Shown here: positions 25,711-45,950 of the stretch, one piece after another
How positions within the stretch are numbered: the stretch's first letter is position 1
How the letters are laid out: each line of letters begins with the position of its first letter
DNA from: an uncultured Candidatus Melainabacteria bacterium
GTDB lineage: Bacteria > Cyanobacteriota > Vampirovibrionia > Gastranaerophilales > Gastranaerophilaceae
NCBI GenBank assembly: GCA_950096985.1
Contig: CATNBA010000005.1
Span: 1-64,000, forward strand
DNA length: 64,000 nucleotides
Direction: 5' to 3'
Notes under the pieces: model-generated
What the model was told of the DNA's origin: nothing
The model's database searches: none
The model's input: only the letters and a program-made list of their open reading frames with translations
Position numbers and translations under genes: made by a program

Positions 25711-26583
25711 ATGAAAATAAGATTTCTACAAGATTTTGTGGATAAATTTCGTGGGAAAATTTATGGTATAGGCGATTTAGTCAGAAGACATAAATATGTA
25801 AACAGAATTAAGAATTTTAGCGTAATAGCGTTTGGTTCTTCACATATGGGATGTGCATACAGACCTGCCCCCCCCCCGAACGGCGAAACCACAAAACTTA
25901 ATTTTGGATTTCCGTATCAGGATTTATATTATTCTTACAACTTCTATAAATATTTAAATTCTAAGTCTACCAAAACCATACTGCTCACTTTTTCGGTTTT
26001 TAGCCCCGGAGATGTAACCATAAAATCAAAATTGCACGGTATTTGTGTTTTATATAAACTTTTGTTTGGGGTACCATACCAGTATGGGAACATTGCGAAA
26101 GAAAAAAAACTTGAACAACTGGAAACTGCATACAACAAAAAAATTAATAAATATAAAAATAAATTAAAAAACTCTAAACATTACATTGAAGACAAACCTC
26201 GTTATGCGCGTATTCTGGATAAAAGTCCGGCAGCAATAGAAAAACTTAAAATACGAGCACAAAAACACTTTAAAATAAATCAACGCCCGGTACAAATGGA
26301 ATACATTTCGAAATTCTTAGAGGATACAAAGGAAAATTCTCAAAAAATATATATAATTTTGTCACCTGTAACAAAATATTATAAAGAGGCTTTACCCGCA
26401 TCTGATATAATTTACAGCGAACTATACAAGATGGTTGATGAAAAAAAATATCCGCATGCAAAAATTGTAAACTTCTATGATTGTGAAGAATTCCAAGATG
26501 ATGATTTCTTAGATGGTGACCATTTAAATTCATATGGGGCAGAAAAGTTTACACGTTTAATTGAAAAAATAATAGAAGAATAA
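25711..26583 (+). CDS. SGNH-like hydrolase with ten-C tract (possibly phase-variable)
   Basis: A 290-residue protein. FSVIAFGSSHMG (residues 36-47) places Ser43 or Ser44 as in block I of SGNH/GDSL hydrolases, and FLDGDHLNSYGAEKF supplies the paired Asp268 and His271 of block V. Members include acyl-esterases acting on cell-surface glycans and lipids; the substrate is unknown. There is no clear signal peptide. Codons 53-56 are built from a run of ten C (25868-25877), remarkable in this AT-rich DNA: a change of one base would truncate the protein soon after residue 56. In this copy the frame is intact. Confidence 0.75.
   Translation: MKIRFLQDFVDKFRGKIYGIGDLVRRHKYVNRIKNFSVIAFGSSHMGCAYRPAPPPNGETTKLNFGFPYQDLYYSYNFYKYLNSKSTKTILLTFSVFSPGDVTIKSKLHGICVLYKLLFGVPYQYGNIAKEKKLEQLETAYNKKINKYKNKLKNSKHYIEDKPRYARILDKSPAAIEKLKIRAQKHFKINQRPVQMEYISKFLEDTKENSQKIYIILSPVTKYYKEALPASDIIYSELYKMVDEKKYPHAKIVNFYDCEEFQDDDFLDGDHLNSYGAEKFTRLIEKIIEE
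25868..25877 (+). repeat. Ten-C homopolymer inside a coding region
   Basis: Ten consecutive C within the SGNH-like gene, encoding Ala-Pro-Pro-Pro in the present frame. Outside the two ten-base tracts I noticed no longer G or C run than about five bases in the window. Confidence 0.9.
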
Positions 26584-39882: not shown

Positions 39883-40619
39883 TTATTTAATCCAGTTAAT
39901 CATAGATTTACCGCCTTTTTCATTTCTATGACAGCCGATTGCTGAAGCGAAATTAAATTTTTGCATGTTATCGTAACGTGCATACATGATAAAAAAGTCA
40001 TAGCCCCATTTATTAGGTCCTTGCAGTCCGTTTGTATCGACCGCAAAATATTTAGTATTTGAAGCACCACCGTAACCTTTAATTATAGTCAAACCGTCAT
40101 TTAACACCCAAGCATTATATCTATTACGCAATGAATTTGCAGCAAAACCACAATTACTGATATCTATATTTACAATCTCGTTCATTTCCTCCTCTGATTT
40201 GTCAGGATTATTAGCTTTTGCAACCTCATCAATCCCTTTTAACTGTGGAGAAATACAACCATTTGAAAGAGCGTTATCATTACAAATTTTTATAATATTT
40301 AAATTTTTCTTTAATTGTTCCTCAAAAATCTCACAATCACCAGAATTAGTACCTACACCTGTATTGTAAAAGCAAGTATTGCTAAATTCTAAATCAGCAA
40401 GCGTTTTGAAATAAGCATTATTCAATATTGAATAAGCTTTTTTAGCCCTGTTCCTCAAAACAATTTCTTGATGCTTATTTATTAGCGTTGGCATTGTTAA
40501 AGCTGCAACTACCCCAATAACCCCCAGAGTTATCAACACCTCTGCAAGAGTAAATCCTAATTTCGGTTCAGAGCCCCCCCCCCGAAATTATTAAATAAAA
40601 AACCAATATTAAATTTCAT
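39883..40619 (-). CDS. Type IV prepilin-like gene, out of frame at a ten-G tract (phase OFF)
   Basis: The body from about 40560 to 39883 encodes a prepilin: GFTLAEVLITLGVIGVVAALTM followed by a globular part with CFYN, CEIF, CNDN and a DTNGLQGPNKWGYDF element like the two prepilins at 31.7-33.3 kb. The only start with a ribosome site (GGAGGG four bases before) is ATG at 40619: MKFNIGFLFNNF, then a run of ten G (40583-40574), then a stop TAG eight codons later. One more G (eleven) would read GGGG-SEPKLG directly into FTLAE, giving a perfect 245-residue prepilin. In the body's own frame a TAA lies right before the tract. So this copy is OFF, or one base was lost in assembly. Confidence 0.82.
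40574..40583 (-). repeat. Ten-G homopolymer between the prepilin start and its cleavage site
   Basis: Ten C on the forward strand, ten G in the gene. 11 or 8 would restore the prepilin frame. Confidence 0.9.
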
Positions 40620-40704
40620 CAGTCCCTCCAATCTATTTTATTATTATAAAACAATCTTCAAAACATTTCAATATGTTGAATGAGACTGTAATCCTTGTTT
40701 GTTA

Positions 40705-45646: not shown

Positions 45647-45731
45647 CATATCCTCCTTAATATAAAAAAATAATACCACACCTGAAATCGATGCGGTACT
45701 ATTTAATAAAATTGTTACAAAACCCACTTGG

Positions 45732-45751
45732 CGGGTCAAGCGGCTACGCTT
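45732..45751. repeat. 20-base repeat, copy 2 (end of rpmE)
   Basis: CGGGTCAAGCGGCTACGCTT, 19 of 20 identical to the thyX copy. Here the element supplies the rpmE stop codon (TAG) and runs into a terminator-like hairpin ACCCGC-CAA-GTGGGT with TTTTG after it. Confidence 0.7.
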
Positions 45752-45950
45752 GTTTTTTACCGTAGCGTTTATTAAATCTTTCAACACGTCCTTCAGAGTC
45801 AAGAATTTTTTGTTGACCTGTGTAGAACGGGTGACAGTTGTTGCAAATTTCAACTGTGATATTGTCTAAAATTGAACCTGTTTCAATTTCGTTACCGCAA
45901 ACGCATTTTACGGTCATTTTCTTATAATCTGGGTGAATTCCGTTTTTCAT
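45744..45950 (-). CDS. rpmE: 50S ribosomal protein L31
   Basis: 68 residues of the zinc-binding L31 type: Cys16-x-Cys18 and Cys36-x2-Cys39, with [21 protein letters not shown]. The start MKNGIHPDY is typical, and AGAAGG lies eight bases before the ATG. thyX follows after about 100 bases; the two may be separate units because a terminator-like hairpin lies between. Confidence 0.96.

Follow-up and report, generated by a model that had tools for sequence, protein, structure and literature searches.

Poly-G/C tracts in prepilin leaders and in an SGNH/DltD-like gene of a gut Gastranaerophilales genome: probable contingency loci aligned with replication

The 64,000-nucleotide stretch of an uncultured Candidatus Melainabacteria genome analyzed here ("the window") contains exactly ten C at positions 25868–25877 (+), inside a gene for an SGNH/DltD-like hydrolase or acyltransferase (25711–26583, +, 290 amino acids). 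This tract probably belongs to a set of about 49 poly-G/C contingency loci in the genome, through which a large, mostly silent pilin repertoire and a few envelope enzymes would be phase-varied. The genome to which the window belongs (G000) is 1.65 Mb long; all genomes compared are draft assemblies, probably all metagenome-derived, gut metagenome assemblies being the source of Candidatus Gastranaerophilales. It holds 49 G/C runs of at least 8 bases, where about 2 are expected: 38 of length 10, six of 11, two of 12, two of 9, and one of 8. For runs of at least 10 the excess is far larger, with 46 observed against 0.05–0.09 expected under Markov models of order 1–4. The density is about one tract per 34 kb. 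Forty of the 49 lie in the leaders of prepilin-like genes, 18–40 nt past the ATG, and most of these have a GGAG-type ribosome-binding site upstream and FTLAEVLITLGIIGVVAALTMP downstream. The other nine include the SGNH gene, an acyltransferase-3 gene and a glycosyltransferase gene; the enrichment in genes of predicted surface function that the earlier note on this DNA had suggested looking for, among runs of eight or more, is thus borne out by 40 prepilins and these three putative envelope enzymes.

In the window, the position of the tract, its translation as A-P-P-P at codons 53–56, and a frame that stays open at length 10 are all exactly as the earlier note had them. It had expected a one-base change to truncate the enzyme near residue 60, and this holds for the gain of a base (stop after 63 amino acids at length 11) but not for the loss of one (stop after 81 at length 9). 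The remark that other G/C runs stop near five bases is accurate for the window, whose only C/G runs of more than 5 bases are this one and a second C10 at 40574–40583. Both had been taken as coding, which is right for the SGNH tract and wrong for the second, as the latter is in no open frame as assembled. On the minus strand it reads as G10 in the leader of an OFF prepilin-like gene, MKFNIGFLFNNF-G10-SEPKLGFTLAEVLITLGVIGVVAALTMP... (39883–40619, −), which starts at 40619 behind a GGAGG ribosome-binding site at 40625–40629. The frame is broken at the tract, with a stop after 20 amino acids, and would be open at 8 or 11; the product scores 20.4 bits against PF07963, just below the cut-off of 21.2.

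Altogether G000 has 45 matches to PF07963 (the N-terminal methylation motif FTLxE and a hydrophobic helix after the leader), a family whose membership would imply cleavage by a prepilin peptidase and assembly into a filament or a secretion pseudopilus. Pilin states were scored with the canonical ATG at 99 loci in three species, from the tracts read in G000, G010 and G025 (30 in the last). The ratio of tracts in frame (ON) to out of frame (OFF) is 10/30 in G000, 5/26 in G010 and 2/26 in G025, so that 17 of the 99 are ON, which is below one third (p 0.0004), and 82 are OFF. At L072, L074 and L092, among others, the tract abuts the prepilin core and no start codon intervenes, so that a downstream start could not rescue their OFF state. 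ON and OFF lengths occur not only among loci but between species: about 6 of 12 orthologous loci of G000 and G010 are directly observed to differ in length or state (for instance C11 ON at L103 and C10 OFF at L213), a few of the 12 carrying different pilin genes. In 40 of the 49 tracts (leaders), and at codon 53 of the SGNH gene, the run stands in the 5′ part of the coding sequence, where a single base would switch the product. The shared phase-variation habit proposed in the earlier note is supported by the 82 OFF tracts and by the differences at orthologous loci; for the SGNH tract itself, membership would follow from its resemblance to the pilin tracts, taken up below.

We infer that slipped-strand mispairing during replication gains or loses one base and thereby shifts the frame. 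The main targets would be the approximately 40 prepilin-like genes, with the tract between the ATG and the FTLAEV cleavage site; most of them would be OFF at the modal length of 10 and ON at 11 (or 8), and turned ON mainly by the gain of a base. Each cell would probably display few pilins from a mostly silent repertoire, presumably to its advantage, and a few envelope enzymes, including the SGNH/DltD-like one (ON here), would be switched by the same kind of tract.

The tracts have a strict polarity with respect to replication. On any one G000 contig the C-runs are all on one strand, whatever the direction of the gene, and pairs of oppositely directed pilin tracts on one contig agree in DNA strand in 11/11 cases in G000 and, within an arm, in 34/34 in G010. 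Tallied by hand from the tract listings of seven genomes of the genus, with two G025 contig-end tracts set aside, 196 of 202 neighboring pairs among the tracts listed are on the same strand and 6 on different strands; the strand flips at most twice per genome among these tracts, as expected for an origin and a terminus. On contig 1 of G010 the strand changes in the interval 260–298 kb, where the cumulative GC skew also reaches its minimum and dnaN is found; the C-run strand has negative GC skew around 38 of the 49 G000 tracts. Strand agreement, the flip at the skew minimum and dnaN, and the GC skew together place the G-run on the leading strand (i.e., the lagging-strand template); because it stays there, genes read with the fork carry G10 (Gly-Gly-Gly) and those read against it C10 (Cys-Pro-Pro-Pro). 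At the SGNH tract the G-run is on the minus strand, likely the leading strand. Strands are mixed in G034, the only genome from another genus of the family for which a single contig has several listed tracts.

The tracts also share their flanks. On the C strand, G is found at −1 in 110 and at +1 in 102 of 119 tracts; the consensus, AANTG-C10-GAA, is the same for C-coding and G-coding pilins and weaker in the remaining tracts, where, among the eight non-pilin G000 tracts of at least 9 bases, six have G at −1 and seven at +1. Since these flanks are common to unrelated genes and to both coding directions, they point to a constraint on the tracts at the DNA level. A codon-level cause of C10/G10 was rejected, as both bases occur at the same site, the flanks are alike, across unrelated genes too, and the majority of genes are not in frame; amino-acid selection would hold the frame, so with 82/99 pilins out of frame the tract is not a fixed coding feature. 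Neither could a mobile element carrying the tract be upheld: one pilin has a 71-bp leader segment that is repeated elsewhere only in part, and a palindromic repeat of 20–25 bp (GGCGGGTCAAGCGGC..CGCTTGG) is shared, yet the tract exists without it, as in the SGNH gene. Related copies of this repeat stand between the tract and the prepilin core in several pilin leaders.

In a tree of 87 pilin bodies, the deep branches of which are poorly resolved, the C/G label changes 23 times, no fewer than in shuffles, with at least 11 changes forced by well-supported branches. Given these changes, bodies must pass from one type of leader to another, or else tracts arise anew with the complementary base. In G000, G010 and G025 the C- and G-coding leaders are dispersed across the tree, a pattern that suggests shuffling of leaders and bodies by recombination at the conserved core. 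Separately, several contigs (with loci L078, L079, L095 and L100) end at pilin cores.

With a confidence that falls a little short of even, we propose that the direction of replication, and not of transcription, sets the base of the tract: TTC-G10-CA would be laid out on the leading strand across the prepilin superfamily and unrelated genes, OFF by default at 10, and re-formed with the complementary base in reversed gene bodies. The polarity may stem from a replication-dependent bias in the gain, loss or mutability of tracts, which would persist in one orientation only. If so, a replication-coupled process, be it strand-specific slippage, selective loss or a dedicated factor, makes the tracts and keeps them at a set length, and the strict polarity with at least 11 base changes on the pilin tree would open to testing the question of how the birth, length and mutability of homopolymer switches depend on the direction of the fork. 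KOPS-type octamers are likewise G-rich, polarized to replication on the leading strand, and flip at the origin; the strict orientation, the origin flip and the flanks common across genes would all suit tracts that are primarily polar, chromosome-organizing sequences of this sort, found in pilin leaders by chance. Such a role is scarcely credible here, given that the approximately 50 copies are mainly (40/49) in the leaders of one gene family, that several species of the same genus have only 0–7, and that one copy per about 34 kb is sparse for guiding a DNA motor.

Some findings count against interpreting the tracts as contingency loci. The length is exactly 10 in 83 of the 99 pilin tracts, and in 83 of the 99 the frame is restored at lengths of 2 mod 3 (8, 11). 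This pattern is not what neutral drift of length and frame would produce, so the account needs either selection for a default OFF state or common descent as well. G000 and nearly all members of the genus have MutS1 and MutL, by which loss of mismatch repair was rejected as the cause of the tracts. Furthermore, the SGNH gene is ON, and neither of its two known orthologues has the tract (PAPAPEG with no homopolymer in the one of 72% identity, a gap in the one of 41%). Reverse-transcriptase-templated writing of tracts was also considered and rejected; the presence of RVT_1 and the number of tracts are unlinked, and the tract-rich G007, G014, G022 and G025 have no RVT_1.

The uniformity of the pilin tracts invites two other explanations. 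The first is programmed recoding, in which a −1 ribosomal frameshift on GGG/CCC or slippage of RNA polymerase would yield a fixed, low amount of pilin from length-10 genes with the DNA unchanged, and indeed one and the same correction is needed in 83/99 pilins, G10 and C10 alike: +1 base, which amounts to a −1 slip. We consider it improbable, as the orientation of the tracts follows replication and not transcription, the OFF lengths of 9, 11, 12 and 13 would need other shifts, and 17 genes are plainly in frame. The second is an artefact of assembly or sequencing, the true tracts being one base longer and in frame and the consensus truncated at 10, for which the draft, probably metagenomic, nature of all assemblies and the 83 tracts of exactly 10 would speak. 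This seems very improbable: the other pilin tracts have lengths of 9, 11, 12 and 13, some of them OFF at 11, the same bias is seen in three species, and errors in length are unable to create a strand polarity or a location.

For the SGNH gene, the case is the weaker one. The GSSH (42–45) and DGDH-type (DxDH, 268–271) blocks are invariant across three homologues, and the structure model (mean predicted local distance difference test, pLDDT, of 78) has DltD (6pfx) as its best PDB match, with an E-value of 1e-4 and 13% identity; PAF-acetylhydrolase-like proteins, sialate O-acetylesterases and PatB come next, and the scores, that of DltD included, are weak (template-modeling (TM) score about 0.45). 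Against Pfam no family exceeds its cut-off, Lipase_GDSL reaching 15 bits vs 23.6. The model has a predicted SGNH fold with the Ser of block I and the Asp-x-His of block V that define the superfamily, at weak structural scores. It resembles DltD and related SGNH enzymes (PDB 6pfx, 6o93) in this fold and in both blocks, and differs from DltD in its low identity, its shorter length and the lack of any dlt operon context seen. The resemblance suggests, without proving it, acyl transfer or de-esterification on an envelope glycan; since no signal peptide is evident on by-eye inspection, a role in the envelope is not certain. In G023, the gene adjoining the SGNH homologue is CDP-glycerol glycerophosphotransferase-like.

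The C10 lies in a loop, variable and rich in Pro, that follows the Ser block; as both orthologues lack the tract, it is recent and species-specific. One may ask whether this tract alone is incidental, the product of a Pro/Ala-rich loop whose codons drifted to CCC, the pilin tracts being the genuine switches; the run-free PAPAPEG at the equivalent site and the intact frame would agree with this. We find it rather unlikely, because chance runs of 10 are almost never expected and because the exact length of 10, the TG-C10-GAA flanks and the leading-strand orientation are those of the pilin tracts. On the strength of this shared length, context and polarity, we favor, with reasonable though not high confidence, the inclusion of the SGNH tract in the same system.

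Among relatives, 33 genomes of the genus have 0–176 tracts of at least 9 bases (median 63), and 25 genomes of other genera a median of 2. Within the genus, genomes with more PF07963 prepilins tend to have more tracts (Spearman 0.70, or 0.90 when G021 and G029 are left out). G021 serves as a natural control, with 128 prepilins and four tracts; most of the 30 loci read there have ordinary short leaders, for example MKKG|FTLAEV. At three loci of this genome (L270, L285 and L291), G/C-rich inverted repeats (CCCTCCCCCATGGGGGAGGG...) lie inside the prepilin leaders and lengthen them. G038, from another family of the order, has 88 prepilin matches and zero tracts of at least 9, a pilin expansion without the switch. 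In G012, which belongs to the genus and has one tract, a full MutS1 match is missing and the MutS family is represented only by a partial match; as the assembly is 92% complete, this may be a gap.

Poly-G/C contingency loci are of a known kind. The Campylobacter phasome consists of tens of 9–10-base G/C tracts in an AT-rich genome, mostly within the open reading frames of surface genes, which switch frame and vary in length between strains (PMC6321876). The number, length and base of the tracts, the AT-rich genome and the location inside surface-gene reading frames are all similar here; the targets differ, being prepilin leaders, and poly-G is not regularly on the coding strand as it is in Campylobacter. 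In Neisseria, a G/C homopolymer inside the frame of the pilus-related gene pilC switches it ON and OFF (reviewed in PMC5953494; first described by Jonsson et al. 1991). The principle is the same, while one or two pilus assembly or tip genes are concerned there and tens of prepilin-like subunit genes here. The gonococcal major pilin varies instead by recombination with silent pilS copies. Searches of the open-access literature yielded nothing on phase variation or poly-G tracts in Melainabacteria/Gastranaerophilales, nor on replication-polar tracts. As far as this literature shows, what is new is the lineage, the targeting of prepilin leaders at such a scale and the strict fork polarity; the leading-strand polarity of the G-run, as well as flanks and a modal length of 10 held in common with unrelated genes, appear undescribed in it. 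If our interpretation is correct, uncultured, non-photosynthetic gut relatives of cyanobacteria have a phase-variable, pilin-directed surface on the scale of the phasomes of Campylobacter and Neisseria, and, because most such pilins are out of frame, annotation based on assemblies will miss or truncate them.

Finally, outside the pilins, the acyltransferase-3 gene is a good candidate for a second phase-variable locus, with its tract at codons 273–276, ON, and kept in G010; in the orthologues of two species it is near the 3′ end of the gene (L081, ~2462; L223, ~2823). The remaining non-prepilin tracts of G000 are in the glycosyltransferase gene (ON), a PRTase-like gene (OFF at 9, ON at 10), an AAA ATPase (ON), a 421-amino-acid open reading frame of no assigned family (OFF), a proline-rich open reading frame with C8, an open reading frame cut short at length 10, and a site about 24 bp upstream of an open reading frame. 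In the window, an MgtE gene, whose hits assign the genome to Candidatus Gastranaerophilales, stands beside the second tract, and a copy of the palindromic repeat (GGCGGGTCAAGCGGC..CGCTTG), which occurs at about eight sites in the genome, is located at 45729–45752.
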